Made by a program: the position numbers and the translations under genes. Positions 3,460-43,345 of a DNA stretch of 44,324 bases are shown in pieces (the first letter of the stretch is position 1; every line of letters starts with the position of its first letter). A model generated the notes under the pieces. It made no database searches. It was not told the DNA's origin and worked only from the letters and a program-made list of their open reading frames with translations. The stretch is from a virus: positions 1-44,324 of IMG/VR virus record IMGVR_UViG_3300048023_000188; one strand, written 5' to 3'.

Positions 3460-5607
3460 CTTATATTTATCCTTTTGTATATCTTTATTTATACTGTTTT
3501 CTGGTGTTCTTAATTTAGAATCAACAGGTTTTTCATCTGGTGTCTCTCCAGGTGTCATTTCTTTAGTATGATTGGCATAATCTGCCCCTATTTCATATGA
3601 TTCTTTACTGACTTCACCATACATTTGTTTATATTTTTTAGTATGTTTAGATGTTTTAGTCTTTGCTGTGTCATCGCCAGGCGCTGGTTTGTAACCAGGT
3701 TTTGTAGTATCTTGTTTCTTAAAAAAGTCTGCCCTCTTTTGTTTTACATCTTTACTTAATGTCTTATAATATTTCTTTGGCTGAGTACCTGGTTCTTTTC
3801 TAACATCAGGATCCTGTGCCAATTTTTTCTTTTCTTTCATGTCTCCCTCCGATACAGCCTCAAAGCCATAATCTATGTCTAAATTAAACTCTCTAATTGC
3901 AACCTCTTTATCTGCTGAATCAGGTACACAATCATATATCCATGCCTTGTGTAAGTTTTCTTCTGAATCTTCAAGTACAATATAGTTCGTACTTCTTCTG
4001 ACAATCTTGCCATGTATATCTTCTTTAACATAATGTACTTTGTCATTTATATTAAAGATAACTTCTCTAATATATAAATCTCTCAATTGTTTCTTTTCAA
4101 ATGCTTCTAAACTTGCCATAGGTTTAAAGTTATAACCCATGTGATTATTTGTATTAGCAGCTAATGACTTTTTAAATGATACTTTCATACCTTTTGCAAC
4201 ATCTCTAAATAATGACTGTACATCTCTAAATCCTGAAGGTAAACCTTTTTCAAATGATTTTATATCACCTTGTGAAACAGCGTTTCTCATTTTACTTGCA
4301 CTCATACCTGTAGCGCCTTCGGCGTCTGGGTCTCTTTCACCTGCACTTGTAACTTTAATATCTAAGAAATCATAAAAACCGTGTCTCGATTTTACATTAT
4401 TATATTTGTTTAGTATTGTTTTAAATTCTTGTACTCTATCACTACCTACAACCATGTTAATATTTTTATAACCCTTGTTGTACAATTCTGTTGCAACATC
4501 TAGTATCATATTTGAGGCAGGTATTCTAAACATACTTCTATGTTGTGGAAACATCCTTCTCATATATTGAATCTTTTGTGTAACTGTTAAAGGATTTTTT
4601 TTAACATCTTGTGATTTACTTAAATAAACATATTTAAAATCACCAGGTGTCTGTGCAACTTTTCTTATAAGTTTTTCATGACCTATTGTTGGAGGATTAA
4701 ATCTACCAAATGTAAACACAGCAGTTCCTTTAGAATGTTCAGGTGCTTCTTTTAGAGAATCTATCTCTTGGTCTGTAACTTTATCATCTTCTAATATATC
4801 TTTTAGTTTTTTATAAAACTTCATGTAGTGATATTTTTCTAACATCTTATAGATTACATTTTTAGGTAGTTTGTTTTGTTTACCAAACTCTCTAATTTCA
4901 TCAGGTGTCATTTCTCTACTAAAGATATCTCTCCTATCGTTTGTAAGTTTATCACCTATCTCTTTTAATCTTCTAATTGATTCTTCTATTTCTTCTAGTT
5001 TTTCATTGACTAATGCTTGTAGATTTAAGACATCATTATTAGATAATTGTTTTAGTTCTGTATAATCTATAATATCTCTTTTTAGTTCACCTTTAATAAT
5101 ATCAAGTTCTTGTACTTGTTTTCTAAAATCTGCCTCATACTTTTCAGGCTCAAATGTATCTTCATCTGGTTTTTTAATCCACTTGTTATCTTTTATAGAG
5201 AAGATACCATCTGCCTTTTTGTTATTGTTTTCTAAAACTTTAGGGTCTGTAATCACATAGTAGTTTACAGGATGTTCTGTGCCTGGCACATTTTTACCAT
5301 TGATATCTCTTAATAGTTTAGAGTATTGTTCTCTCCTTTCTTCTTGTTCATCTTCAGGTACATCAAATAATACATTGATATCCAAGTCAGCGTCATTACG
5401 ATATCTCTTTGTAAGTATAGAACCTATTAATGATGTTGATACAACAGGTGCAAGTTTTTCAAACTCTTTAATCTGTTTGTCAATCATATCTAAAACTTTT
5501 TGTTTTAGTTTAGGATTTTCAGTATCAGCGTCATCAAATACACCAGGTGCATAATCTTTTCTAGGTATATCAATTACTGATTCTATTAAGTCTTTATAAA
5601 ATTTCAT
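3118..5607 (-). CDS. Multidomain nucleotidyltransferase / NMNAT-like polyprotein
   Basis: 829 aa with several domains. Residues 55-80 carry a Pol-beta-superfamily nucleotidyltransferase signature: GS at 62-63, then DADLD at 72-76. Residues 295-445 form a cytidylyltransferase/NMNAT-like domain, with HIGH-type GRFNPPTIGH at 301-310, VVGSD at 386-390 and SASKMR at 436-441, suggesting adenylyl transfer as in NAD synthesis. The C-terminal 113 aa form a separate module that also has its own promoter and start. The N-terminus MKFYKDLIE before S10 resembles a T4 capsid-targeting peptide. Further prohead-protease-like sites lie at LKE before A288 (just ahead of the NMNAT domain), VSE before G588 and ITE before A741. 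The start overlaps the upstream... downstream junction with the kinase gene as ATGA at 5604-5607. Domain calls are firm; substrate and packaging are inferred. Confidence 0.85.
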   Translation of the reverse strand: MKFYKDLIESVIDIPRKDYAPGVFDDADTENPKLKQKVLDMIDKQIKEFEKLAPVVSTSLIGSILTKRYRNDADLDINVLFDVPEDEQEERREQYSKLLRDINGKNVPGTEHPVNYYVITDPKVLENNNKKADGIFSIKDNKWIKKPDEDTFEPEKYEADFRKQVQELDIIKGELKRDIIDYTELKQLSNNDVLNLQALVNEKLEEIEESIRRLKEIGDKLTNDRRDIFSREMTPDEIREFGKQNKLPKNVIYKMLEKYHYMKFYKKLKDILEDDKVTDQEIDSLKEAPEHSKGTAVFTFGRFNPPTIGHEKLIRKVAQTPGDFKYVYLSKSQDVKKNPLTVTQKIQYMRRMFPQHRSMFRIPASNMILDVATELYNKGYKNINMVVGSDRVQEFKTILNKYNNVKSRHGFYDFLDIKVTSAGERDPDAEGATGMSASKMRNAVSQGDIKSFEKGLPSGFRDVQSLFRDVAKGMKVSFKKSLAANTNNHMGYNFKPMASLEAFEKKQLRDLYIREVIFNINDKVHYVKEDIHGKIVRRSTNYIVLEDSEENLHKAWIYDCVPDSADKEVAIREFNLDIDYGFEAVSEGDMKEKKKLAQDPDVRKEPGTQPKKYYKTLSKDVKQKRADFFKKQDTTKPGYKPAPGDDTAKTKTSKHTKKYKQMYGEVSKESYEIGADYANHTKEMTPGETPDEKPVDSKLRTPENSINKDIQKDKYKMKTFKEYAEDDIYAHLDEELEITEAEYQGKKVKLNDPIRGGSKKFYVYVKNDKGNVVKVSFGDTTGLSIKRDDPERRKSFRARHKCDTAKDKTSARYWSCRMWTAKTKVSDLD
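3486..3493 (-). promoter_or_regulatory. Internal late promoter candidate TATAAATA
   Basis: Exact T4-type late promoter octamer on the minus strand inside the 829-aa gene. The expected start site lies near 3479, about 20 bases before the internal ATG at 3459, with an AAAGGA ribosome site between. Position and associated start make it better than a random match, but it is not followed by the GTA seen at other sites. Confidence 0.45.
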
Positions 5608-6284
5608 CTTCTTTTAATCTTTAATTGTCTATCTATCCATTGTTTTGCAAGATAATTATGTGGTTGATTCATAGTTCTTCTAACTATACTTGCACATTTA
5701 TTTAGTGTTAATGTTACTAATTCCTTTTCACTTTGACTGTTGTCTATAATATGAAAGTTTGCTGGTTGAAATAGTTTTTGAAGTCTTCCCATATTTCCTT
5801 GAACAGTATTCCAATTTGTTTTAACTATATTTTGTGGTACACTTCTATCTCTTTTTTCATTTCTTTCTAATGCGACATCTAAACTTGTATTAACAAATAA
5901 CATGGTAGTTTGATATCCTAAAATTTTTAAAAATCTTTGTTGTCTAGATATTGTAGCAAAGTCTCTAGCAGTACCATCTATTATTAAACCAAGTCTACCT
6001 GCAATGTATAAATCCATTCTTGACGCTGTATTTATTTTTGCCTTCTGTCTGATTTCATCTCTTTTTTCTTTTTCTTTCTCAGGCATTTTCATAGACAATC
6101 CTTCATCTTTTAAATACTTTTCAAATATACTATCTGAGTTTACAAGTTTTAAACCTAAACCTGCAAATGCAGCCTTTGTTACAAATGTTTTACCAGAACC
6201 TGGTCCACCTGCAAGAAAGTATGCCTTAAATATACCAGGGTCATAAACTCCTTCTGTTATTAAAAATGTTTTATAGTCTTTCAT
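5604..6284 (-). CDS. P-loop kinase-like protein with N-terminal cargo-type peptide
   Basis: 226-aa P-loop NTPase of the zeta-toxin/AAA_33-like kinase type. The Walker A motif GGPGSGKT lies near residues 27-34, followed by a NSDSIFE element and IDGTARD near residue 105, the usual layout for small-molecule or polynucleotide kinases. The substrate is not evident. The first 12 residues, MKDYKTFLITEG, resemble the T4 internal-protein opening (MKTYQEFIAEA), with a prohead-protease motif ITE before G12. It overlaps the adenylate kinase upstream by 14 bases and the polyprotein downstream by ATGA. Inference: a capsid-packaged kinase. A toxin role or polynucleotide end repair (its unit also holds a ligase-like protein) are alternatives. 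Confidence 0.8.
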   Translation of the reverse strand: MKDYKTFLITEGVYDPGIFKAYFLAGGPGSGKTFVTKAAFAGLGLKLVNSDSIFEKYLKDEGLSMKMPEKEKEKRDEIRQKAKINTASRMDLYIAGRLGLIIDGTARDFATISRQQRFLKILGYQTTMLFVNTSLDVALERNEKRDRSVPQNIVKTNWNTVQGNMGRLQKLFQPANFHIIDNSQSEKELVTLTLNKCASIVRRTMNQPHNYLAKQWIDRQLKIKRR

Positions 6285-10425: not shown

Positions 10426-11655
10426 TTATTTTTTTGCAGAACGAAGACCTAAGTCTACATTTCCAGCGTCTTGTAATACATCTCCAACAAAAGGTGTTCC
10501 TTCATAACCTACTTCTTTGTTGATTCTGTTTGCAATTGCTTTTTCTTCATCAGTCGCAAAGTGTTCATCCCATGCAGCCAATCTTTTTCTCATATACCAA
10601 TGCCAAATTGGTGGTACTAATGCGATAAAGAATACCACAAAGTAGCCCCAGCCTGTATTTGGACATCCGACATTTTCGAGTTCCCAGAAATGAGTTTCTC
10701 CTCTGTCATGATGGTCAGCCTGTCTGCCGATTTCAATAAAGAACCAAGCAGTGAAAGCTGTTGAGTTATCCCAATTGTGTCTGTAATCAATTGGTTGGTC
10801 TTTTACACGGATTAGACCATAATGCTCTAGATAGTTAAGTGCTTCTAGCTCGAAGTTTGAGATTCCCCAAATTGTTGCTAGTACTGCCATACCTATCCAA
10901 CCACCAGCTGCAAAGAATAATGCTACTGTTGGTACTGCCATTAGATATCCTCTTATCCAACGGTTTTGCCAAGAAATGAATGATACACCCATTCTTGATA
11001 GTCTTTCTTTTTCCATGTTGAAAAGAAATTTTGATTGACCTAGGTATGAAAGTGGATAATGACCATAGATTGTTCTACCACGAGGTGCAGTAGCTGGGTC
11101 ATCTTCACTTGCAAGTTCTAGATGATGGTTGTACACATGAGCGTAACAGAAATGTGCTGAACCAGATAGTGCCATCATTAATCTAGAGATTACGAATCCA
11201 AATCCTTTTGTGTGAGATAGTTCGTGACCATAGATGATTCCGATACCAATAAAGATACCAGAAGATAATGTAGCGCCGATTAGGTTAACTGCTGTTATAC
11301 CTTCGTGCATTACTAATATTCCAGGAATGAGTTCCATGATTACTGCACCTTCAGCTCCACCTAGTGCCATGAATGTATAAAGTCTCCATGCCATTACTAG
11401 TTGAAACAAAACGAATACAGGTAACATGAAATACATTGTTAGGTTTTGAAAAGTTGGCCAACCTAAAGATTCGCCGTTTTCATCATAACCTACACCTGTT
11501 GTTTCAAATTTTGTAGCGATATCTACAAGCAGACCTACGAATAGCAATGCTACTCCTAACCAAGCCATGATACCACCCAAAAGAACGCCAGCACCAGCTA
11601 CGATTATAAGAATCGGCGCTAATAGATAGCGTGCATTAAGTAAGATTTGTCCCAT
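10426..11655 (-). CDS. alkB: AlkB-type membrane alkane 1-monooxygenase
   Basis: 409 aa, polytopic, with at least six hydrophobic helices. AlkB signatures are in order: HELSHTK at 144-150, HVYNHH at 173-178 followed by the family's EDDPA stretch, NYLEHYG at 274-280 and RQADHH at 311-316. Family members hydroxylate n-alkanes at the terminal carbon with a di-iron centre and rubredoxin; no rubredoxin gene is visible here. The last motif is normally RHSDHH, so the first His is Gln in this protein, an unusual change at an iron ligand position. ATG 11655 was chosen because TAGGAGG lies before it and the longer ORF would start inside the promoter. It has its own sigma70-type promoter. A hand count of one 60-base line gives 25 G/C, against 13 in a line of the next gene. 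Substrate could be an alkane or a lipid. Confidence 0.93.
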   Translation of the reverse strand: MGQILLNARYLLAPILIIVAGAGVLLGGIMAWLGVALLFVGLLVDIATKFETTGVGYDENGESLGWPTFQNLTMYFMLPVFVLFQLVMAWRLYTFMALGGAEGAVIMELIPGILVMHEGITAVNLIGATLSSGIFIGIGIIYGHELSHTKGFGFVISRLMMALSGSAHFCYAHVYNHHLELASEDDPATAPRGRTIYGHYPLSYLGQSKFLFNMEKERLSRMGVSFISWQNRWIRGYLMAVPTVALFFAAGGWIGMAVLATIWGISNFELEALNYLEHYGLIRVKDQPIDYRHNWDNSTAFTAWFFIEIGRQADHHDRGETHFWELENVGCPNTGWGYFVVFFIALVPPIWHWYMRKRLAAWDEHFATDEEKAIANRINKEVGYEGTPFVGDVLQDAGNVDLGLRSAKK

Positions 11656-11690
11656 TTGATTTTTCCTCCTATCAAATGTTATATACTTGG

Positions 11691-11719
11691 AGTATATCGT
11701 AAGGAACAACTAAAGTCAA
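11691..11719 (-). promoter_or_regulatory. Sigma70-type promoter of alkB
   Basis: TTGACT (11714-11719) and TATACT (11691-11696) with exactly 17 bases between, one mismatch in each box. Expected start near 11684 gives a leader of about 29 bases containing TAGGAGG, the strongest ribosome site in the window. The remaining gap up to 11844 is AT-rich and holds no ORF or convincing terminator. Confidence 0.8.
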
Positions 11720-19929: not shown

Positions 19930-19958
19930 ATTGTACTATAAAAAGACTTATTTGTCAA
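19930..19958 (-). promoter_or_regulatory. Sigma70-type promoter of the Sm-like/gp43 unit
   Basis: TTGACA (19953-19958), 17-base spacer, TACAAT (19930-19935). It lies within the last codons of the upstream RimK-like gene, so transcription probably reinitiates here. Confidence 0.8.
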
Positions 19959-21327
19959 TGGTGTACGGACTAGTAACTATATATTTTCTACTAGGGTCTA
20001 CCATAACATTAAGTCTATTCATAAATTCTCTATCTAATAATATATGTGTTCTATTTTCTCTATCATCTAGAGTAAACTCAACATCTGTATATAATGTACC
20101 TGCAAATTGTACATCTAGTTTAATTAAGTATCTGTCTTCTTCATAGTCTCTTAGACCACCTACTTTTATTTCTTCTTGTCTAATTATATCTGATGTTATA
20201 GTTTTATTATATAATGACCATGTTACTTTTTTACCTTTAACTTCCATTTTCTCTGCATGAATAACATTCGTGCCACTATTACCTGTATCAAATTTTGCAA
20301 CAATATCACCAAAAGGTTTTATTGTCATAACTTCTTTATATCCACATTGTGAAGGTGCCTGTACCCAATTCTTTTTATCTGAAAAATATTCTAAAATTTC
20401 TTTACTAATATTTCTACCTGTTGCCTCTTCCATACCTTCTGTTCCAGGTGATGAGTTTACCTCAATCATAAATGGTGGTTCTTTTGTTCTATTTTTTGAA
20501 GGTATAAAATCTACAGCAGTCCATAAACCATTTACTGCTTTAGAGGCCTTGATACATTCTTCTATTTCTAATTCTGTTAATTTTAATTCTTCTGGTTTTG
20601 AACCTTGTGATACATTACTTCTAAAATCACCTTTGACTACAGGTCGTTTCATTGTTGCAAGAACTTTACCACCTAAAACTAATACTCTAACATCATAGTC
20701 TGTCTTAATATATTCTTGTACTAATAAATCAGCATCCTCATCTTGTTTATTGATTAACTGTACAATAGAATCTAGTCCTATTTTTGATTCAATAAATAAG
20801 ACACCCACACCTTTTGACCCTCTTAATGTTTTCATAATTACAGGAAAGTCTGTGTCTAAATTTTCAAATGCTTTTAAGGCATTTTCTTTATCTGTTATTA
20901 GTGAAGATTTAGGTTGTCTTAAACCATAATCTGCAAGTTTGATAGATGTTCTATATTTGTCTGTACATATTTCTATACAGTCTCTACTGTTAATACAACA
21001 TACTTTATCTTTTTCAAACATAGATATGATATCCATCCAACTGTCTCTACGAACAACTGAACCTCTAAATATCGCAATAGTATTTTTATCAACTACAAAA
21101 CCTTTTTCATCATCTTTATTATGTAATCTTCTGATACCTTCTTCTGTTGATGTATACCCACCTGTAAGTTTATACAAGTAATATTTCCACCCTAACTTTT
21201 TCGCCTCTTGTTGAAGTCTATCTGCCGTGTGAAAAGTTTTTGCTTGTTCAGGCTCATCTGTTATAATTACTAGTTTAGGAGTTTCAACTGCCTCACTAAT
21301 AAATTCATTAAAACTAGGTACTTTCAT
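19948..21327 (-). CDS. RimK-like ATP-grasp ligase fused to RimB-like aspartic protease
   Basis: 459 aa, two domains. Residues 15-320 are an ATP-grasp ligase of the RimK class: VIMKTLRGSKGVGV near 163-176, VQEYI at 203-207 and Mg-binding MIEVNSSPG at 287-295. Residues 335-455 resemble the RimB/ATP-dependent-protease family with retropepsin-type FDTG at 346-349, HAEKMEV, LLDREFM at 430-436 and VDPSR at 443-447. In bacteria RimK adds glutamates to ribosomal protein S6 and RimB trims them. Carrying both in one chain suggests reversible poly-glutamylation of a host or virion protein. The N-terminus MKVPSFNEFISE before A13 fits a capsid-targeting peptide. It overlaps regA by 14 bases. Domain calls are strong; the target is unknown. 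Confidence 0.85.
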   Translation of the reverse strand: MKVPSFNEFISEAVETPKLVIITDEPEQAKTFHTADRLQQEAKKLGWKYYLYKLTGGYTSTEEGIRRLHNKDDEKGFVVDKNTIAIFRGSVVRRDSWMDIISMFEKDKVCCINSRDCIEICTDKYRTSIKLADYGLRQPKSSLITDKENALKAFENLDTDFPVIMKTLRGSKGVGVLFIESKIGLDSIVQLINKQDEDADLLVQEYIKTDYDVRVLVLGGKVLATMKRPVVKGDFRSNVSQGSKPEELKLTELEIEECIKASKAVNGLWTAVDFIPSKNRTKEPPFMIEVNSSPGTEGMEEATGRNISKEILEYFSDKKNWVQAPSQCGYKEVMTIKPFGDIVAKFDTGNSGTNVIHAEKMEVKGKKVTWSLYNKTITSDIIRQEEIKVGGLRDYEEDRYLIKLDVQFAGTLYTDVEFTLDDRENRTHILLDREFMNRLNVMVDPSRKYIVTSPYTIDK

Positions 21328-24222: not shown

Positions 24223-24251
24223 ATTATATACCAACCAGCACGATTTGTCAA
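24223..24251 (-). promoter_or_regulatory. Consensus sigma70 promoter of gp45
   Basis: TTGACA (24246-24251), 17-base spacer, TATAAT (24223-24228). The -35 box sits in the loop between the arms of a 12-bp inverted repeat, and one arm fills most of the spacer. Confidence 0.9.
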
Positions 24252-24263
24252 TGCTGGTTGGTA
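24229..24263. promoter_or_regulatory. 12-bp inverted repeat over the gp45 -35 box
   Basis: TACCAACCAGCA (24229-24240) and TGCTGGTTGGTA (24252-24263) are perfect reverse complements 11 bases apart. The -35 hexamer is in the centre. It begins nine bases after the hsp20 stop codon, so it could also act as an RNA hairpin at the hsp20 3' end, but there is no U-run. The half-site AACCAGCA before TTGACA is repeated at the gp55 promoter as ACCAGCA. It reads as a candidate operator. Confidence 0.7.
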
Positions 24264-33954: not shown

Positions 33955-34491
33955 TCATTCTATAAACTTATCTAGTTTACCTTTTCTTTTTCTAGTAGTT
34001 TTTTTCTTAATCACAGGTACATCATCAGTAGTAGCGTTTCTTTGTAAGAACTCACTAAACTGATTTCTAAATTGTCTATCTTCACCATCATTCAAAGTCA
34101 TATCATCATAGTTTCCTTCCATGATTAATCTATTCTTAATTGTAGTTTGTTTCTTTTCTTTTTGTATTCTACGAATAAATGCATAATAGATTATCTGTGT
34201 AAAGTATGCGAAAGGATTGTTTGATTTTTCAGGATTGAAATTGTCAAGATATTGCAAACAGTTTTCTATACCATCAGAAATCATATCATCTCTAAATGTA
34301 TAGTTAATAAAGTTTGGTCTGTAAGATAAGTGATTTGCAATCTTTAAAAAGCACTCACCTATATAGTTTGAAACAGGTGGTTTATCTTCACCTGATTCTT
34401 CAGCGTCCGTACAGAGTTTTCTATATTCGGTCATAGCCGCTAGAAACTCTTTATTGTTCACATAATGTTCTTTCTTTTTATCTGATTTCAT
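33955..34491 (-). CDS. 55: Late sigma factor gp55
   Basis: 178 aa from Met at 34491; three codons earlier another ATG (34500) lies inside the -10 box of the promoter. The region FRDDMISDGIENCLQYLDNFNP ... AYFTQIIYYAFIRRI is the sigma region 2-like core of T4 gp55 (185 aa), and the protein ends in a basic tail. It directs RNA polymerase to TATAAATA late promoters, several of which occur here. A perfect sigma70 promoter ends eight bases before the chosen ATG, so the transcript would be leaderless. Confidence 0.93.
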   Translation of the reverse strand: MKSDKKKEHYVNNKEFLAAMTEYRKLCTDAEESGEDKPPVSNYIGECFLKIANHLSYRPNFINYTFRDDMISDGIENCLQYLDNFNPEKSNNPFAYFTQIIYYAFIRRIQKEKKQTTIKNRLIMEGNYDDMTLNDGEDRQFRNQFSEFLQRNATTDDVPVIKKKTTRKRKGKLDKFIE

Positions 34492-34498
34492 GTTACTC

Positions 34499-34527
34499 AT
34501 TATATATCATTAGACAAGTAATGTCAA
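34499..34527 (-). promoter_or_regulatory. Consensus sigma70 promoter of gp55
   Basis: TTGACA (34522-34527), 17-base spacer, TATAAT (34499-34504). The -35 box overlaps the end of the last desaturase gene. The bases before it (ACCAGCA) repeat the arm of the gp45 inverted repeat. Confidence 0.9.
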
Positions 34528-35234
34528 TGCTGGTTTGATTTTATTAGTTTAATAAATGTATTTGCCCACACATATGGAAAAGGTATATGCCACTCTGCTG
34601 GATTTTCATGATGATATTTATGTTGTCCATCAGCAAATATAAGTGTAACCCATGTTTTGTTTTTTGCCTCTTCTGGATAATGACATGAAGCATTTACAAA
34701 GCCAGCGCCAATAATACTATACATTGCAGGAAATATATACAATGCATAAACTAAAATAGGACTTATCATCAATAGTGTTAAGAAATATAATGCATGTATT
34801 TTAAAGTAATGTTCATGTATGAATAAGTGTTCTTTATCTCTAAGTAAATCTTTTGCATATATCATACTTTTTTTACCTTCTTCTTTTGCAAAAAAATAAC
34901 CAAAGAATACTTTCCAATAACCCATATATGATGGTGAATGTGGGTCACCTTCTTTATCAACATATCTATGATGTTTTATGTGTGCAGATTTATATAATAT
35001 TGTTGAACCTGAACCTACTATTACAGCTGTACACACTAAAAAGTAATGCCAAAATTTATTTGTTTTAAATGCCCTGTGTACAAAGTATCTGTGTAATGCT
35101 ATAACTTGACCTACACAACCTAAAAAATGTCCTAGTATTAAACAAATTATCCATTGTTCTAATGTTAGAAAAAAGAAACTAGATATTAAACCTATCCATA
35201 ACAAGGCCCACAGTATTCTCATTTTTTTAATCAT
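34524..35234 (-). CDS. Membrane fatty-acid desaturase 4 (acyl-CoA/lipid type)
   Basis: 236 aa, about four membrane helices. The three His boxes are intact: HRYFVH (48-53), HIKHH (85-89) and HKYHH (205-209), matching the di-iron stearoyl-CoA/plant-type desaturase fold. It introduces a double bond in acyl chains, with electrons from a ferredoxin or cytochrome b5-like donor not seen here. It is last of four tandem, coupled desaturases (ATGA with the previous one) and is shorter than bacterial relatives (about 300 aa). Substrate unknown: host phospholipid or another lipid. Confidence 0.9.
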   Translation of the reverse strand: MIKKMRILWALLWIGLISSFFFLTLEQWIICLILGHFLGCVGQVIALHRYFVHRAFKTNKFWHYFLVCTAVIVGSGSTILYKSAHIKHHRYVDKEGDPHSPSYMGYWKVFFGYFFAKEEGKKSMIYAKDLLRDKEHLFIHEHYFKIHALYFLTLLMISPILVYALYIFPAMYSIIGAGFVNASCHYPEEAKNKTWVTLIFADGQHKYHHENPAEWHIPFPYVWANTFIKLIKSNQH

Positions 35235-35980
35235 TTTCTTATTAACTTAATCACATAATATGCTGAATCAATTTCATACCACTTAACACCATTGTTTATA
35301 GAAGTAGGATTTGCATGATGATTATTATGTAATGTTCCACAGTTTATAGGAAATATATTAATATTGACTGAGTTATCATTAGTATCAAAGTTTCTATATC
35401 CCCAACCTAGAGTATGACATAATACATTAGTAATACTTGATGTATGAAAACAAAATGTAGCAGGTATTAGTATCATGCAAAGTGTATAAAACGGACTAAT
35501 TAATAAACATGGTATCATAAACATGTAATATATTTTAAAACAATTTTCATATTGTATTCTAAAATGTTTGTTTTTTAATAATCTCTTTACTGTGTGGCCA
35601 CTTATCATATTATTTTTATATGTATTCCACCAGAACCATGTTTTCCAACCATCACTTGCTGGGTGTGAATCACCTTCTTTATCAGAATATCTATGATGTG
35701 TTATATGATTTGGCGCCCATGCTAAAGGTGGAGGTTGCATAGTAAATGTCGTACAATATAATAAAAATGTTTCTATTTTTTTATCTAATTCAAATGCTTT
35801 ATGAGAACAATATCTGTGTAAAAAAGTTTCTAATAATACTACAGCAAAAAAGAATGTAGAGATAAATATTATAAAATAATCTAAAGTTGTAAAGGTTCCC
35901 CAATAGTAATAAATACCTACAAATGTTGCAAGTTGCATAACTAATTGTGTTAGTAATAATTTAGACTGTTGATTTAACAT
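35231..35980 (-). CDS. Membrane fatty-acid desaturase 3
   Basis: 249 aa. His boxes HRYCSH (55-60), HITHH (92-96) and HNNHH (218-222) are complete, with helices around 10-50, 70-85 and 150-180. It diverges from its neighbours outside the boxes, and box 3 has Asn-Asn, so the four copies are not simple recent duplicates. It overlaps the previous desaturase by 20 bases and the next by ATGA. Position specificity cannot be read from the sequence. Confidence 0.9.
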   Translation of the reverse strand: MLNQQSKLLLTQLVMQLATFVGIYYYWGTFTTLDYFIIFISTFFFAVVLLETFLHRYCSHKAFELDKKIETFLLYCTTFTMQPPPLAWAPNHITHHRYSDKEGDSHPASDGWKTWFWWNTYKNNMISGHTVKRLLKNKHFRIQYENCFKIYYMFMIPCLLISPFYTLCMILIPATFCFHTSSITNVLCHTLGWGYRNFDTNDNSVNINIFPINCGTLHNNHHANPTSINNGVKWYEIDSAYYVIKLIRK

Positions 35981-36740
35981 CTTCGCCTGTTTTTTTCAAA
36001 AATAAATGTTCTATAAACCATGCAGGTGGGTCTAGTTCCCACCATTTATGACCATGTCTGTAATCTTTAGATACTGTATGATGATAATTATGCCAACCCT
36101 CACCCCAGCTAATTAATGAAGTTAATGGACTATTAACAGCAGTACAATCTTTTCTAGGTGTAATAACGACATATCCAAAATGTTTACAATGGGGTATAAC
36201 ACCAAATGCCCCAGCGGCTTGATATACACAAGCTGCAGGAAAACTAAATGCAAATATACCTAACATTGGGTCTATTGCATATAAAACACCAATGTAAGTA
36301 AACAATAGTTTCCAATAGTGTTTAGTAATAAACATATAGTCTTTATCTTTTAAGATATCTTTTACCATTGTTTTAGGCACAGTTATAGGGTCATATAAAG
36401 TAAGCCATGCTCTTATATAACCTATTCTATCTGGTGATTGATTATCATCTACAGGATGTCCAGCGTATCTATGATGATATCTATGTTGTGCTGTCCATGA
36501 TAATGGACTACCAAATGCAGATATTATAGTTAAGTATTTTAATATCTTTTCTCTTATAATACCTGTTCTAAAACTTCTGTGGCACATAAATCTATGCATT
36601 GCAATGTTTGTACCAAATATATTTACAAATGCCCATGCGATTAAACCATATATGATATACTCTGGAAAGTAAATACATCCTAGTATAGCAATGATAGTAT
36701 TCAGTAATGCCAATAATTGTATTAATCTTGCATGTTTCAT
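35961..36740 (-). CDS. Membrane fatty-acid desaturase 2
   Basis: 259 aa from the ATG at 36740, which overlaps the previous stop as ATGA; the ORF extends three codons to a GTG that is less likely. His boxes are HRFMCH (49-54), HRYHH (86-90) and HNYHH (217-221), with GEGWHNYHH as in acyl-CoA/acyl-lipid delta-9 desaturases. This copy is the closest to the canonical type. Confidence 0.92.
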   Translation of the reverse strand: MKHARLIQLLALLNTIIAILGCIYFPEYIIYGLIAWAFVNIFGTNIAMHRFMCHRSFRTGIIREKILKYLTIISAFGSPLSWTAQHRYHHRYAGHPVDDNQSPDRIGYIRAWLTLYDPITVPKTMVKDILKDKDYMFITKHYWKLLFTYIGVLYAIDPMLGIFAFSFPAACVYQAAGAFGVIPHCKHFGYVVITPRKDCTAVNSPLTSLISWGEGWHNYHHTVSKDYRHGHKWWELDPPAWFIEHLFLKKTGEDVKSTV

Positions 36741-37429
36741 TTTGTCCACCCTAGTTTATTTATAACCCAAACACATGGGTCAAACCAACAATGTTTTAGT
36801 TGTGGGTCGATATGATGTTGTCTATGAAATGATTCTGAAAATGCAACAGGATACATATACGGAACATCTCTAACTTCACCTATATGACACATAATTCCTG
36901 TTACTGCCATTACCCAAAATGTAGTCATGCCTACAGCAGTTGCCCATGATAAAAACCATTCAATAGGTAATATCATAAACAATATAAAATTAAGTAAGTA
37001 TGCTAAAACTGTTTCATTTTTTGTTAACCACATTTGCCACTTGTTTCTTAATCTCTTAGACGCTAATTTAATATTAGCCTCATGTTCATGAGTTCTAAAT
37101 ATAATTCTAAACCAATTGACATACTTAGGACTATGTGGGTCTTTTTCTGTATCAGAGTTCTTGTGATGATTATGGTGCCATGCACAATATGATATTGGCG
37201 TACCAATCAATGCAGTTAGAGATACTACACTCATTATGTTTTGAAACCATACAGGTGGATTCCATAAGTCATGTGTTGCCCACCTGTGAGTAAACATACT
37301 CATTGTAAACTCTAGTAAAAACCAAAATAAAATATAAGTAAAAAACAGTTGTGTCCATGAAAGAACAACAAAAGAATATACTGCTAATGCAAAATAAAAT
37401 ATGTATAAAATACTAAGTGCTAATCTCAT
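36737..37429 (-). CDS. Membrane fatty-acid desaturase 1
   Basis: 230 aa from the ATG at 37429; the longer start is TTG. His boxes are HRWATH (48-53), HHNHH (85-89) and HRQHH (202-206). It begins the four-gene desaturase unit. A TATAAATA-like box with one mismatch lies 27 bases before the ATG. The box 3 context (ESFHRQHH) differs from the canonical WHNYHH, so its substrate may differ. Confidence 0.9.
   Translation of the reverse strand: MRLALSILYIFYFALAVYSFVVLSWTQLFFTYILFWFLLEFTMSMFTHRWATHDLWNPPVWFQNIMSVVSLTALIGTPISYCAWHHNHHKNSDTEKDPHSPKYVNWFRIIFRTHEHEANIKLASKRLRNKWQMWLTKNETVLAYLLNFILFMILPIEWFLSWATAVGMTTFWVMAVTGIMCHIGEVRDVPYMYPVAFSESFHRQHHIDPQLKHCWFDPCVWVINKLGWTK
36757..36764 (-). promoter_or_regulatory. 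Late promoter candidate before desaturase 2
   Basis: Exact TATAAATA inside the end of desaturase 1, about 17 bases before the ATG of desaturase 2 and followed by AGGGTGG. It may be coding coincidence (ATA-AAT-AAA codons). Confidence 0.35.
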
Positions 37430-37455
37430 TTTCAACCACGCTTGACATTGTTCTC

Positions 37456-37501: not shown

Positions 37502-37909
37502 CTAGTGTTTAGTGCTATCATCTATACTATCAAAGATTTCATTTAACTTCTTAGATGTATCATCATCAAGCTGTTCTTGGTTATAAGAATCTTGATTGTG
37601 TTCAGTCATGGTTGCTCTATCATATCCAGCAGAGACATTTATATATGAGTTAGTCATAGCTGAACCAGCAGTTGTTATAGTCATTATCTTATCTTTAGGT
37701 ATAGATATAACAGTATCATCAGAATATGAAGTCCACTTTATAAGGGCAACATAATCTTTCATACCCATTTCTTCCATAGCAGGAACATACTTCACTTGCA
37801 AAGGTTTATCAATTTTAACAAGCGGTGATTTCTCATCTAATAATCTTTCTGGTATCGTACAAACGATATCATCACCATTTACTAGTTTAATTATTTTAAT
37901 AGCTTCCAT
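37502..37909 (-). CDS. Sm-like (LSm-type) small protein, copy 2
   Basis: 135 aa. The first 75 residues (IIKLVNGDDIVCTIPE, VKIDKPLQVKY, TVISIPKDKIMTI) parallel copy 1 at 19587: G-(D/E)-D-x-(I/V), L/I-x-KP, then a strand near a D/K turn. The C-terminal 50 residues are acidic and Gln/Asn-rich, probably disordered. It follows uvsW by 11 bases, with AAAGGAGAATGACATGG as ribosome site and start. RNA-binding Sm-type ring is the inference. Confidence 0.65.
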   Translation of the reverse strand: MEAIKIIKLVNGDDIVCTIPERLLDEKSPLVKIDKPLQVKYVPAMEEMGMKDYVALIKWTSYSDDTVISIPKDKIMTITTAGSAMTNSYINVSAGYDRATMTEHNQDSYNQEQLDDDTSKKLNEIFDSIDDSTKH

Positions 37910-37920
37910 GTCATTCTCCT

Positions 37921-39387
37921 TTATAGTTCGACATTGTGTATACTATAATCAAATCCTTCTTCATTGTATATATTTATCCTTTCTCTGAAGTGTGAAAGTG
38001 TATAGTTTTCTTCCTCTTGATACGACAAATCATCTGATATATCATAAAGATTTGCAGTTGAATTATCATCTTTTAATCTAAGACCACGACCAATAGACTG
38101 TAAGTTTCTTATTCTAGATTTACTTGGACTACTGAATACTATATTGTGTAGATTACGAATATTTATACCTGTACTAAATGTACCATAACTTGCTATTATT
38201 ATTGCATTATTAGACTTCTCTGTCAAGGCTCTAATCTTCTCTCTTTCCTCTGTTTCTACACCACCATAAACAAAGAATACTTGTTTGTCTTTATTCTTTT
38301 CTTCTATCAGTTGTTTTAATATCATACCATGTTTTTCTACATATTGAAACAGGCAGAGCGAATTCCCTTTTAGTCCTAAACACAAGTTTCTAATGTAGTT
38401 ATTCCGTTTTGTGTTTGATACAAGAAAGTCCATTTCTTCTTGATATGTTTTACCTCTTAAAAAGTCTATTGACATCTTCTCATGTTTTAAAACTAGGCAA
38501 TGTATTTTAAGTTTTGCTAAATGTTCTTTTTCTTGTAACTCTGTTGTTGATACTATTTTGTTTACAGCACCAAATAATCCTTCTAAAACTAACTTATGTG
38601 TTTTACTATCATCTAAAGTACCTGTAAGACCTACTCTATATTTACAGTCTTTCAATGTTGCCATAATTTTAGTCAATGATACTGCCTTAAATAGATGTGC
38701 CTCATCACCTATAACCATACCATATTGTTCAAACCATTTTTTATCTTGTTTATAGATAGATTGCCATGTACTAATAACTATTCTTTTAGTTGTATCTTTT
38801 TCATGTCCTTGATATATCTTATGCACATTTCTTGCACTATTATATCCATAGTCAGCAAAATCTTTAGTTAATTGTTCTACTAGAGAAGTAGTCGGTACTA
38901 CTATAAGAATCTTATTGTTTTTTTCTTCTTTCAGGCGTATCAGATTAAAGCGAACCATCAGATATATTATCAGAGATTTACCCGAAGCTGTAGGCGATAA
39001 CATTAAACACCTTGATTTCACCATAGAGTAAATAAACGCCGATTTCTGGTAGTCTCTTACTTCAAAAGGTATCTTTAGTTTCTTGATGAAAGAATCTACG
39101 AGTTTATCATCTACAACAGCATCCTTTATGTCTGTTCTGTCTACTACTTGAACATCATTCTCTTGGCACCAATTAAGTAAGTATGGATATAGACCTGTAT
39201 AGATTTGACCATTAGTATAAGAAAACAGGCGAATTTTTCCATCCCACCTTCTACTTCTTACAGAGGGCATAAACTTTGCACCAGGCACTTCAAATGTAAA
39301 GTGAGAACCTAAGTCTCTACGAACATCTTCATCAGCATCCACTACTAAGTGTACTTCATCTTTCTTTGTTAATATAATGTTTCTCAT
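37921..39387 (-). CDS. uvsW: UvsW helicase
   Basis: 488 aa (T4: 503). The start was set at the ATG overlapping the oxygenase stop (ATGA); the longer ORF begins with TTG. Superfamily 2 motifs are present: SPTASGKSLI near residue 132, VPTTSLVEQL near 162, GDEAH near 226, GLTGTLDD near 256 and QSIGRGLRLKDD near 443. It unwinds branched DNA and R-loops and, in T4, turns off origin replication late in infection. Confidence 0.95.
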   Translation of the reverse strand: MRNIILTKKDEVHLVVDADEDVRRDLGSHFTFEVPGAKFMPSVRSRRWDGKIRLFSYTNGQIYTGLYPYLLNWCQENDVQVVDRTDIKDAVVDDKLVDSFIKKLKIPFEVRDYQKSAFIYSMVKSRCLMLSPTASGKSLIIYLMVRFNLIRLKEEKNNKILIVVPTTSLVEQLTKDFADYGYNSARNVHKIYQGHEKDTTKRIVISTWQSIYKQDKKWFEQYGMVIGDEAHLFKAVSLTKIMATLKDCKYRVGLTGTLDDSKTHKLVLEGLFGAVNKIVSTTELQEKEHLAKLKIHCLVLKHEKMSIDFLRGKTYQEEMDFLVSNTKRNNYIRNLCLGLKGNSLCLFQYVEKHGMILKQLIEEKNKDKQVFFVYGGVETEEREKIRALTEKSNNAIIIASYGTFSTGINIRNLHNIVFSSPSKSRIRNLQSIGRGLRLKDDNSTANLYDISDDLSYQEEENYTLSHFRERINIYNEEGFDYSIHNVEL

Positions 39388-39938
39388 ACCCAAGGTTTTC
39401 CTAGTACCCAACCGACTAATGATTTTCTTATACCTTTAGTTACAGGTGTTACTCTATGCCATAAAAACGAAGGAAAGAAGATAATATCACCAACATTTAA
39501 ATCAGTAAATTGATGTAGTATATCTTCATTTTTTGGATTACAATTTGCACACTCTAATGTTCCACCTTCATAATCTTTATTTAATATAACAGAAAAAGAG
39601 ATTTTTCTTATTAGACCATCATCATAGGGTTTACTATGTGAATCTATATGCCATTGATAGTGGTCATCTACATTGTATACTGAGTATTGCATTGGTTCTA
39701 ATTTTTGTATTTGAAACTTCCAACCAGTCTTTAAGTTTATTTGAATAGTTTTACTGATAAGAAGTTTATGTAATTGTTCATCATTTATCCAAGATACTTT
39801 ACTACTTCTATTTTTATTATCACCATCTTGTATTTTAGATTGTTCAAGCTTTTTAGATTCACCAATCTGAATTATTTTGTTACACTCATCATGTGTAAGT
39901 GCATTAGGATATAACATGACATCATTAGTTAAATACAT
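39384..39938 (-). CDS. 2OG-Fe(II) oxygenase (prolyl-4-hydroxylase-like)
   Basis: 184 aa from the ATG at 39938, one base into the uvsY stop (TAATG). HIDSH near residue 100 provides the H-x-D iron ligands, FLWHRVTPV near 160 the second His, and IRKSLVGW near 172 the 2OG-binding basic residue. The strand GGTLEC sits between them. It matches the phage P4Hc-type hydroxylases common in marine T4-like phages. Substrate unknown, possibly a phage or host protein. Confidence 0.88.
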   Translation of the reverse strand: MYLTNDVMLYPNALTHDECNKIIQIGESKKLEQSKIQDGDNKNRSSKVSWINDEQLHKLLISKTIQINLKTGWKFQIQKLEPMQYSVYNVDDHYQWHIDSHSKPYDDGLIRKISFSVILNKDYEGGTLECANCNPKNEDILHQFTDLNVGDIIFFPSFLWHRVTPVTKGIRKSLVGWVLGKPWV

Positions 39939-40366
39939 TAGATAGCACCAGAAGTAAACTTTCTCCATTCAATAGAGTTTCTTATTTGCCAATCTCTACT
40001 ACTAATAGTTTTTAAAGTTCTATCTAAGTAATTAACGACAGTTTCTAAGTAGTCTATCTTTTGTCTTGATTTGATTAGTTCTTCATCAGATTCTAGATAT
40101 TTGTCTACATCTGATTTCATAATTTTTAGATTGAAAGGTTTTTCTTGATATACTTTAGGACTTGCCTTACCTGTATAGTATTCCCATTTAACTCTTTTAA
40201 GTATCTTGTAATCAGATTCAGCTCTGGTCAATAACAGTTTAAAGTTGTTGTAATGTTTAAGATACTTGTTATGTAACTGAGGTGTCTTTAGAGATTCTAA
40301 GTCAAGTTCAGATTCATTTATTTTTAGGTCTTTATCGACCTGCTCTTGTAGTTCTTCTAATGTCAT
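39938..40366 (-). CDS. uvsY: UvsY recombination mediator
   Basis: 142 aa (T4: 137). It has MTLEELQEQVDKDLKI at the start, matching T4 UvsY MRLEDLQEELKKD, and a helical, basic body with YYTGKASP aligned to T4 YYSGRGD. It loads UvsX on gp32-coated ssDNA. It lies beside uvsW, as in T4, though uvsX is more than 24 kb away. Confidence 0.92.
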   Translation of the reverse strand: MTLEELQEQVDKDLKINESELDLESLKTPQLHNKYLKHYNNFKLLLTRAESDYKILKRVKWEYYTGKASPKVYQEKPFNLKIMKSDVDKYLESDEELIKSRQKIDYLETVVNYLDRTLKTISSRDWQIRNSIEWRKFTSGAI

Positions 40367-40395
40367 AATAAAATCACCGGTTAATTATATAAATT

Positions 40396-40413
40396 CTAAC
40401 TATATTTAGTTAG
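40396..40413. repeat. 7-bp inverted repeat between gp19-like gene and uvsY
   Basis: CTAACTA (40396-40402) and TAGTTAG (40407-40413) around a 4-base loop in the 50-base gap 40367-40416. It is AT-rich with no U-run, so a weak hairpin. The rest of the gap shows no promoter match. Confidence 0.35.
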
Positions 40414-40416
40414 ATG

Positions 40417-41043
40417 TTAAGTAGTAGTTTCAGTAGTTGTAGCACTTCCTACAGTTGCAAATTCATATATTTGATAACTAAATGATACATCACCTATAAG
40501 ATATGAAGTATCGCCAGCCTGTTGGTCATATGATAAACCAGATAATGAAGTGGGATATAAGTCTCTAAATCTAACCTCTAATATAGGATTATTCTTACTT
40601 GACAATATAGTTAATGTAGCGTCTGAGTATTGAGCGCCAACATCAAAACCTACATCATCTACTTTACCTGATTCTCTACTATTTGCAGTTGCATTACTTG
40701 TGGGAAATCTATCTTTACCGGCATTAATAAAAGTTTCAAATTGTTCATGACTTCTAGGAAATCCTAGACCTGTTAACCAACCATGTATCTCACGATAGTT
40801 CTCTAAATTTTCATCTACAAGAAATGATACATTTAAACTTGCATAAGATAATTTATCACCAGGTATTGGTATGTCTTTTAGTGATGTTGATTGTGAAGTT
40901 TCACCTAAAGTAATGCCAGGTATGTTTACAGATGTACAGAAAAATTCTACTTTAGGCAGTTTAGTAATATTAAACTTAAACTGTGTAGCAGCTGCGTAAT
41001 CTAACTTAGTTGGTTGTCTAGTAAGTGAATTTAGTTCTGTCAT
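40417..41043 (-). CDS. Tail-tube-fold structural protein (gp19/gp54-like)
   Basis: 208 aa. FKFNITKLPKVEFFCTSVNIPG, then GDKLSYASLNVSFLVDENL ... IHGWL, and a C-terminal strand pair LIGDVSFSYQIYEF follow the pattern of T4 gp19 (VAGDRTFDDWTVTVMND, FEVTLALDYWE). The same fold occurs in gp54 and gp48, so tube, initiator or hub-adjacent protein cannot be separated. It is longer than gp19 (163 aa). It overlaps the next gene upstream by ATGA. Confidence 0.7.
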   Translation of the reverse strand: MTELNSLTRQPTKLDYAAATQFKFNITKLPKVEFFCTSVNIPGITLGETSQSTSLKDIPIPGDKLSYASLNVSFLVDENLENYREIHGWLTGLGFPRSHEQFETFINAGKDRFPTSNATANSRESGKVDDVGFDVGAQYSDATLTILSSKNNPILEVRFRDLYPTSLSGLSYDQQAGDTSYLIGDVSFSYQIYEFATVGSATTTETTT

Positions 41044-41510
41044 GGTGTAACATCTATTGTAAACAAACCTTTGATTTCATCATAATCAATAGTAGAATTT
41101 CCTATAAAAGAATTGTCATCATTAGACCATGTTAAATGTAAATCTAATGAACCTATTTGTTGTTCATTATCATCACTAGATGTTTGACCACTTTGTGATA
41201 CACTTCTTCCCTTTCTTGTGCCAGATTCTTCGTAATAATAAAAATATTCTTTTTGTCCTTCATTGTTTAGAACCAAATAATGTTTAATTCCACTAGTATC
41301 ATCGCCATCTATATTGTAAACAGGCTGTTTAGTGCCTACATTAAGTATATCAAAAACCAATATAGGTATTACTGTACCTATTTCATTCCCAAGTATTGTA
41401 ACACCATCATCAAACACCAATTTTCTTGAATATAAAAGAATGTATTTATTTACAGGGCCTTGATAACTATCAAATTCTTCTAATGCTTTATCTGTAATTG
41501 TAATTGCCAT
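41040..41510 (-). CDS. Unrecognised late protein, possibly structural
   Basis: 156 aa from MAITITDKALEEF at 41510; the longer ORF start lies in the preceding gene, upstream of the promoter. It is acidic and beta-rich with a Ser/Gln-rich loop (SVSQSGQTSSDDNEQQ). No membrane or catalytic motif. TATAAATAGTA ends five bases before the ATG, so the mRNA may be leaderless. Coupling to the tail-tube-like gene suggests a virion protein. Confidence 0.7.
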   Translation of the reverse strand: MAITITDKALEEFDSYQGPVNKYILLYSRKLVFDDGVTILGNEIGTVIPILVFDILNVGTKQPVYNIDGDDTSGIKHYLVLNNEGQKEYFYYYEESGTRKGRSVSQSGQTSSDDNEQQIGSLDLHLTWSNDDNSFIGNSTIDYDEIKGLFTIDVTP

Positions 41511-41514
41511 AGTA

Positions 41515-42171
41515 CTATTTATAAATAACCTTTGGGCCAAATGAATCAGAATCAATAAATATTTTAGCGTCTTTTAAAGATTCTGTGTGATTTCTATACT
41601 TATCTTCAGTAGAAGTAACAACAAATACATCTCTTTCAAACCCTTCATGTGGAATTTTAAGATTAATTATTGTATCATCTGAATTTAATGTAGATGTAGG
41701 CCTTGCAGTTTTTATTCTGTTTACTAACACAAACTCTTGATAAACCCAATTCCAAAACAACACTTTGCTATGATTTTCTTCAGGAAAATAGGTATGTATT
41801 TTATATCCAAATGCTTTGCGACCTCTTTCACTCCAAAAAGTATTTGTTCTCAAATATTCCCAATGGTCATTTTTCAATGCCTTCATAATTGTTGGTGTGC
41901 AATTTTCAAGTTCATAAGCTTCGTTGTTATCATATAAAAAAGCGCCTTCTGTTCTTATTTTTTTTAGGTCTTCAGTAGAAACTTTAAAACCTATGACATC
42001 ATCTACATAAAACTCATTATCACTTTCATATGCACTTTTCATTTCATTATGGTTATCTATTATTCCTAGATGAAATCTAATGCCTACAGGAAACTGACCA
42101 TAATGATGAAGATGTGTCTCATCATACATCCATTTTAAAATCCAAGGATATACTGCTTTATCTATTATCAT
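41515..42171 (-). CDS. Unrecognised protein between oxygenase genes
   Basis: 218 aa with many aromatic and His residues (HLHHYGQFPVGIRFHLG at 21-37) and no membrane segment. HxH and later His could bind metal, but the double-stranded beta-helix order is not apparent. It overlaps the cupin-like oxygenase by ATGA, so is co-translated with it. Function unknown. Confidence 0.7.
   Translation of the reverse strand: MIIDKAVYPWILKWMYDETHLHHYGQFPVGIRFHLGIIDNHNEMKSAYESDNEFYVDDVIGFKVSTEDLKKIRTEGAFLYDNNEAYELENCTPTIMKALKNDHWEYLRTNTFWSERGRKAFGYKIHTYFPEENHSKVLFWNWVYQEFVLVNRIKTARPTSTLNSDDTIINLKIPHEGFERDVFVVTSTEDKYRNHTESLKDAKIFIDSDSFGPKVIYK
41516..41523 (-). promoter_or_regulatory. Late promoter TATAAATAGTA overlapping a stop codon
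   Basis: Exact octamer plus GTA. The upstream gene ends IYK-stop, whose codons ATT-TAT-AAA-TAG form the promoter. The ATG of the next gene is five bases after it. Confidence 0.7.
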
Positions 42172-42722
42172 GTCATATTAATTGTAAGTGATAGTCTAGG
42201 ACCATCTGTGTCATCTACACAATGTTTAGTAAACTTAGGAATATGTATAACATCACCAGGTTTTACTGTAACACTCTCTGTTTCACCTAATACCCAATAA
42301 GAAGTTCCATAGATTTGTTTTACATATACATCATATGTGTGGTCATGACTTTGAAATCCTCCTTTGCCTTGTTTACTCATATATAAGTTACCGTGTACAG
42401 GAAAGAAAGAAAAACTGTCTGATATTGCACTTTCTAACATTCTTAAATCATCAGTTAAATCAAAAATACTAGACAATATTAAAGTGTGTCCAAGTTCATA
42501 AACTTTTTTTACTTTACTATATTCTAGAAAACCTTGGGCATCAAATATTCCTCTATGTTGTGATTGACCATCATATGAATTAATAACCTCTACACTAGGA
42601 ACATTATCATGAAATTGATGAGGAAATCTTCTTCTTATCTTAAACATTTCAAAAACATCTTCTTCAGTAAGGTCTATTGTATATTCTTTTAAAAGGTTAT
42701 AAAAATCTTTATCTATGCCCAT
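42168..42722 (-). CDS. Cupin/JmjC-like oxygenase
   Basis: 184 aa. The C-terminal half is a cupin barrel: SFFPVHGNLYMSKQG near 104-118, HDHTYD near 125 as the likely H-x-H/D metal site, VKPGDVIHIPKFTKHCV near 153-169 with the distal His, and a closing strand RLSLTIN. This order fits JmjC/cupin hydroxylases that modify ribosomal proteins or tRNA-related targets. Its N-terminal half is helical. It overlaps the 2OG oxygenase upstream by 10 bases. Confidence 0.75.
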   Translation of the reverse strand: MGIDKDFYNLLKEYTIDLTEEDVFEMFKIRRRFPHQFHDNVPSVEVINSYDGQSQHRGIFDAQGFLEYSKVKKVYELGHTLILSSIFDLTDDLRMLESAISDSFSFFPVHGNLYMSKQGKGGFQSHDHTYDVYVKQIYGTSYWVLGETESVTVKPGDVIHIPKFTKHCVDDTDGPRLSLTINMT

Positions 42723-43345
42723 TCTAACTGTCCTCCACCCCTAACATATGAATACCAACCAGTTAATATCATTTTTTCTGTTTTATGACTAGCTATTCCT
42801 CTGTGAGTATGTGTAAAGTCTGAAGGCCAAAATAAATGCAATCCTTTTTCAGGTGTCATTTTATATTTTTGATATAAAAATGCAGTTTCACCACCATCTT
42901 CACATTCATTCAAATAAGTCATCCATACTAACATTCTTTTTGTTGTATCCACATCCCCTCTTTCAGAGTGCCAGCTATTATAACTTCCACCTTTAGGATA
43001 TTTTTGAAAATTAAATTGTGGATCCATTTTAAACGCACCGCCAGATTTTAAAGGTGGATATTGATTTGTATATAAATCCATGCATGATTGAACGGCATTC
43101 AAATACACATGTATACATTCAACATCTAGTGTGGGCCAAATTATTCCTTGTTCAAAACATTCTTTAACATCATTAGTTTCACCATCCCAAAAATGAGGTT
43201 TACTTTTTTGTGAATCCCAAGATGTTGCAGGAAATAAATAAAGATTATTACACCATTCTATTACAGGGTCCATAATTTCATCAGGTATATAGTAACCACA
43301 AATAAACTTATCTCTTTCTTTATTAATTTCGTGTTCTTTAAACAT
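42713..43345 (-). CDS. 2OG-Fe(II) oxygenase-like protein
   Basis: 210 aa. WHSERGDVD near 123-131 gives the first His and a carboxylate, MTYLNECEDGGETAF near 142-156 is the typical central strand, and FTHTHRGIASHKTEKMILTGWY near 177-198 supplies the second His and a basic 2OG ligand. H-x-E instead of H-x-D in the iron site is notable, though the D of GDVD could serve. First-part Cys residues are not in a zinc arrangement. Confidence 0.82.
   Translation of the reverse strand: MFKEHEINKERDKFICGYYIPDEIMDPVIEWCNNLYLFPATSWDSQKSKPHFWDGETNDVKECFEQGIIWPTLDVECIHVYLNAVQSCMDLYTNQYPPLKSGGAFKMDPQFNFQKYPKGGSYNSWHSERGDVDTTKRMLVWMTYLNECEDGGETAFLYQKYKMTPEKGLHLFWPSDFTHTHRGIASHKTEKMILTGWYSYVRGGGQLEWA

Follow-up and report, generated by a model that had tools for sequence, protein, structure and literature searches.

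Four consecutive, different and apparently intact membrane desaturase genes of a marine T4-like phage form a swappable cassette, which is held at a single genome site and probably enables the phage to rebuild the membrane lipids of the host. The window analysed (i.e. the whole 44,324-nucleotide stretch of virus record IMGVR_UViG_3300048023_000188) is probably a genome fragment. As an earlier note on this DNA had described, four consecutive minus-strand open reading frames are present at 34524-37429, with a transcription order of D1, D2, D3, D4. The start-to-stop overlaps claimed for these genes were confirmed, with D1/D2 and D3/D4 sharing a 4-nt ATGA and D2/D3 sharing 20 nt, and the claim of a coupled phage operon was supported. 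D1 and D2 both start with ATG, with alternative starts for D1 (TTG at 37435) and D2 (GTG at 36749), and the four products are ~230-260 aa in length depending on the choice of start codon. An assembly artefact was ruled out by an independent 25-kb contig from another record that is 100% identical to the window and by ten loci with the same four-gene order, a count that takes in the window and this contig.

Table 1. Coordinates of the array, its borders and related features in the window
Feature	Position	Strand	Evidence or remark
UvsW helicase, upstream of array, same strand	37921-39411	-	phrog_16, phrog_9690
Sm-like gene, upstream border of slot	37502-37909	-	phrog_471; weak Sm_like match; conserved neighbour
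Inverted repeat, left arm TGTCAAGCGTGG, immediately before D1	37436-37447	-	
D1, membrane desaturase, first array gene, core-pair member	36737-37429	-	His boxes, SCD1 fold, family profile
D2, membrane desaturase, core-pair member	35961-36740	-	PF00487, SCD1 fold
D3, membrane desaturase	35231-35980	-	PF00487; DesA-family similarity
D4, membrane desaturase; stop codon inside right arm of inverted repeat	34524-35234	-	PF00487; junction sequence
Inverted repeat, right arm CCAGCATTGACA	34522-34533	-	contains -35 box of promoter-like site before gp55
gp55 late sigma factor, downstream border of slot	33955-34500	-	phrog_234, E 7e-64
AlkB-like membrane di-iron monooxygenase, separate locus, same superfamily	10426-11709	-	PF00487 100 bits; relatives 8sbb, 8f6t

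All three His boxes reported in the earlier note were found in each of the four genes (D1, HRWATH/HHNHH/HRQHH; D2, HRFMCH/HRYHH/HNYHH; D3, HRYCSH/HITHH/HNNHH; D4, HRYFVH/HIKHH/HKYHH), together with another invariant His. In a set of 24 diverse phage members, the His ligands were invariant, except for one box-3 His that was conserved at 90% or more. The full pattern was present in 150 of 157 distinct phage sequences, the others being either cut by contig ends (four) or members of family D5 with QxxHH (three). In D5-type arrays, the third box of the first gene is QxxHH and not HxxHH (L201 6518-7273, L203 2208-2975, L087 1175-1915), a form known from front-end desaturases. The clear divergence of the four genes that had been remarked upon was also observed, with D1, D2 and D3 exhibiting 26-31% identity to D4. 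Scores above the curated PF00487 cut-off of 29.7 bits were obtained for D2 (50.6 bits), D3 (52.7 bits) and D4 (42 bits), D1 alone falling under it at 20.6 bits. Despite this score, D1 was accepted as a desaturase-superfamily protein because a family profile of D1 and its relatives matched stearoyl-CoA desaturase (4zyo, E 4e-41) and its predicted model (pLDDT 94) matched SCD1 with a Foldseek probability of 1.00 and a TM-score of 0.76 by query length. The predicted model of D2 (pLDDT 93) also had the SCD1 fold (E 3.7e-8 to 4zyo), and an SCD-type fold was found for both models against 4ymk and 4zyo. These motif and profile comparisons, with predicted models for D1 and D2, show D1 to D4 to be four distinct, intact proteins of the membrane di-iron desaturase superfamily.

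The array is surrounded by the T4 core genes UvsY, UvsW, gp55, gp47 and gp46, with the Sm-like gene among them. These genes of the window, and the Gp23 capsid gene on the identical 25-kb contig, assign the phage to a T4-like (Kyanoviridae-related) group, for which Pelagibacter phage Mosig is the nearest isolate by UvsW (68.8%). The UvsW gene and the array are likely to be on one transcript. None of the cultured phages among 50,697 records carried the same array; distant single desaturases were detected only in Mosig and an Acinetobacter phage, and a close match to D1-D4 was absent from the phage records searched. Other genes of the window include 2-oxoglutarate/iron or cupin-type oxygenase genes upstream of the array on the minus strand of 39384-43345 (39384-39968, 42168-42722 and 42713-43345) and, at 5604-6284 on the same strand, a gene for an AAA/zeta-toxin-like kinase domain protein (Zeta_toxin, E 3e-9).

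Throughout the lineage of the window, the desaturases were always located between the Sm-like gene and gp55 whilst the set of genes in this slot was variable. The sets observed were D1-D2-D3-D4, D1-D2-D4, D1-D2-D3, D5-D4b-D3-D4, D5-D4b-D3-D3b-D4 and D5-D4b-D4, such that several distinct desaturase genes are carried on one viral genome, four in the window and a maximum of five in relatives (L201 and L202). An array was present in three and absent from 77 of the best 80 gp55 relatives, a sample shaped by the search patterns in which three versus 77 is no frequency. In one empty slot (L377), both flanks were 86-87% identical to the window and a 144-base gap stood in the place of the array; the alignment stops a few bases at most from the D1 start, restarting 26 bases before the D4 stop. 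The same picture of presence and absence was obtained for a second sublineage (L380 and L204), with flanks of 88-94% identity. Filled and empty sites have in common the inverted repeat TGTCAAnGnTGG...CCAGCATTGACA, and the empty-site region folded better than shuffled sequences (z = -3.7). A promoter-like site of putative function (TTGACA-17-TATAAT, 34527-34499) precedes gp55 with a full consensus match; promoter-like sites inside the array were not above the shuffled-sequence level. The right-arm box recurs on the minus strand near other gene starts, complete at 24246-24257 and in part at 19953-19964, and may be a shared promoter element. At filled sites of the window's sublineage, the right arm holds the stop codon of the final array gene, be it D4 or D3. 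In a locus without D4 (L018), D3 carries the same SNQH-stop tail, which points to recombination between paralogue ends in the slot.

D1 and D2 were the sole desaturases in 42 loci with mostly different neighbours; the loci in this and the array counts are non-independent events, some contigs being near-identical. Most D1 copies in these loci were 66-77% identical to that of the window, and the D2 copies 77-85%. The podovirus head-tail connector PF12236 was encoded on 8 of 22 contigs tested, one of which (L101) also carries T7-type internal virion and tail-fibre genes, and Gp23 was found only on the twin contig of the window and the L204 contig. The pair is kept in T4-like phages and in podoviruses of unrelated context. 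Further contexts were observed in which D2 lies behind another desaturase, D6 or D2p (L077-L079, L081-L085). Six contigs with an apparently solitary D2 all start within a truncated D1, and D2 was never seen without an upstream desaturase partner where the contig permitted the check (two short fragments, L084 and L334, fall outside this statement). A Pfam search of the neighbours of the podovirus pairs gave no match. Directly behind a desaturase pair in L082 (8747-10052) are a weak DUF455/aldehyde decarbonylase match (E 0.001-0.008) and an Asp_Arg_Hydrox protein, a possible lipid-related cluster. We tentatively suggest that D1 and D2 are an obligate two-enzyme unit (i.e. a hetero-oligomer or successive desaturases) that is exchanged by unrelated marine phages, is assembled into arrays of three to five members and gives streamlined marine bacteria lipids (e.g. 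polyunsaturated) that they cannot make, although this extended proposal is doubtful.

The earlier note had also pointed to an AlkB gene as extending a theme of membrane di-iron enzymes in the window. This remark proved correct, as the AlkB-like protein is a relative of solved alkane monooxygenases; the identity of a DNA-repair AlkB was rejected. A NYLEHYG motif (NYxEHYG type) is present whilst two other His motifs (AHVYNHH and GRQADHH) deviate by eye. The gene has a G+C content of 39% as compared to about 30% around it. Relatives are encoded on 198 viral stretches, and homologues at 50% identity occur in two 1.4-Mb alphaproteobacterial genomes. This is probably an auxiliary gene of interest in its own right; no other contig, all being fragments, carried it together with desaturases.

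Whether the four genes derive from one duplication series or from separate sources had been posed as a question for phylogeny. In a maximum-likelihood tree, all 44 phage representatives fell on one side with only 2 of 39 cellular sequences (L342 and L345), the other 37 lying opposite with full support; the cellular sampling was limited to the matches listed from a genome scan and 289 alphaproteobacterial genomes. D1, D2, D3, D4, D5 and D6 each formed an old, well-supported family. The tree placed old families on the phage side but did not resolve the deep branching order among them. Divergence within phages, or in an unsampled donor, is favoured over four recent host captures because the D1-D4 families are old, on the phage side and away from 37 of the 39 cellular sequences.

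Remodelling of the host membrane, as proposed for other phage desaturases, was the function suggested in the earlier note and is rated as probable; the stepwise polyunsaturation or different lipid substrates also raised there are possibilities. We consider it rather likely that the four genes constitute a modular system for acyl-lipid desaturation, borne by the phage, which uses host electron donors and acts on the membrane lipids of the host. This explanation is suggested by the complete His ligands of D1-D4 and of nearly all phage relatives, the SCD1 fold of D1 and D2, the purifying selection on all four genes and the reported activity of cyanophage desaturases as Delta-9 enzymes. It is also suggested by the retention of D1-D2 across T4-like phages and podoviruses, the presence or absence of the whole array at one site and the old, separately conserved family to which each paralogue belongs. 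The insertion, a single block, lies downstream of UvsY-UvsW-SmL and ahead of gp55, for which a separate promoter-like site is present, and would be transcribed by readthrough from the upstream genes. The D1-D4 proteins would enter the host inner membrane and, with electrons from host ferredoxin or flavodoxin, would put double bonds into host phospholipid acyl chains. The resulting gain in membrane fluidity, or change in membrane chemistry, would serve replication, assembly or lysis. D1 and D2 may function as a pair, introducing successive double bonds or forming a hetero-oligomer, and D3 and D4 may extend the system to further chain lengths, positions or lipid classes. Members would be gained, dropped and swapped by recombination, both between paralogues and at the edges of the array. 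No electron donor gene was seen in the 44-kb fragment, and a search for ferredoxin/rubredoxin motifs gave no credible match. This lack of a donor gene in the window and the weakest constraint on D4 (dN/dS 0.33) count against this explanation, as do membrane di-iron relatives that hydroxylate rather than desaturate.

The array could alternatively be a matter of gene dosage, with four copies performing one Delta-9 reaction and extra copies only raising the amount of enzyme. Close relatives differ in which members they carry, which makes single members look dispensable, and known phage desaturases are assigned to Delta-9 (PMC7300359). A simple dosage effect would call for copies that are nearly identical, however, and D1 with D2 form a specific pair that is retained; this explanation is unlikely because the copies, at 26-31% identity, are old and separately conserved. 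A different chemistry, in which some or all of the proteins hydroxylate or otherwise oxidize a hydrophobic substrate such as acyl chains or lipid A (e.g. for a surface change against further infection), is also unlikely. Hydroxylases and AlkB belong to the same superfamily, an Asp_Arg_Hydrox gene is near a desaturase in Mosig and L082, and D1 is divergent and under the Pfam cut-off, but stearoyl-CoA desaturase came first in the fold and profile matches, AlkB followed at a wide distance and the scores of fatty-acid hydroxylase structures were insignificant.

Selection was compared across 12 related arrays, in which median dN/dS values were 0.07 for D1, 0.09 for D2, 0.21 for D3 and 0.33 for D4, as compared to 0.05-0.13 for core genes (gp55, gp47, gp46, UvsW and UvsY). 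D4 is thus the least constrained of the four array genes. These ratios indicate that all four genes are under purifying selection. Synonymous distances were lower for the desaturases (0.24-0.41) than for the core genes (0.51-0.89), as expected if arrays are exchanged among these phages, one of several possible causes. A partly silent array, with one or two members as enzymes and the rest as structural partners or decaying genes, would agree with the weaker constraint on D3 and D4 and the frequent loss of members but is very unlikely, as dN/dS is well under 1 for all four and the His ligands are complete everywhere. Four separate recent captures from bacterial hosts without a shared array history were not supported by the cellular comparison and the tree and are most improbable: the slot is clearly a site of changing gene content and some other phage desaturases are described as host-derived (PMC7300359), but no recent host donor was found among the cellular matches listed, the nearest of which was 34% identical (to D2), phage members group on one side of the tree, away from 37 of the 39 cellular sequences, and D1-D2 persists as a pair in T4-like phages as well as in podoviruses.

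Should the members of the putative desaturation system make different products, the phages would possess a small lipid pathway that goes beyond topping up a host step, and infection would alter the lipid chemistry of abundant marine bacteria. Filled and empty sites in close relatives constitute a natural experiment on the use of the array to the phage. In the mobile D1-D2 pair, two small proteins are at hand with which the pairwise working of membrane desaturases could be examined.

Mouse and human stearoyl-CoA desaturases (4ymk, 6wf2 and 4zyo) resemble the phage proteins in fold and His ligands but are only 16-22% identical to them; at about 230-260 aa, the phage proteins are the smaller ones, with a putative acyl-CoA or acyl-lipid substrate. 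For cyanophages, Roitman et al. 2018 reportedly found membrane desaturases with Delta-9 activity on C16 chains; these lipid desaturases are known as single genes, unlike the four-gene array. A search for work on SAR11 desaturases yielded nothing bearing on the array. Desaturases are known from Lake Baikal phages (PMC7678222) and from freshwater pelagimyophages, which are, like Mosig EXVC030M, related phages with a desaturase gene (PMC7029224). Mosig has the same gene order but differs in having one desaturase, 25-30% identical and at another site, with the slot between its Sm-like gene and gp55 free of desaturases. Several desaturases per phage are not unprecedented, since two viruses of Arctic cryopeg brine have five copies each (PMC7300359, 2020). 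These resemble the array in having several genes per virus, intact His motifs, SCD1-based models and no clear host source, but come from another habitat and are comparable with D1-D4 by description only; the text consulted describes no conserved pair, no fixed slot with empty forms and no recombining order (PMC7300359). In the literature searched, no description was found of a conserved pair, a fixed slot that occurs both filled and empty, or a recombining array; single phage desaturases are known, whilst little has been reported on ordered arrays built around two fixed genes. The curli (T8SS) module of pelagiphages, which has another function and is presented in a paper without mention of desaturases, resembles the array as a multigene auxiliary module that has moved between pelagiphage families and is common to myoviruses and podoviruses (PMC9599517).
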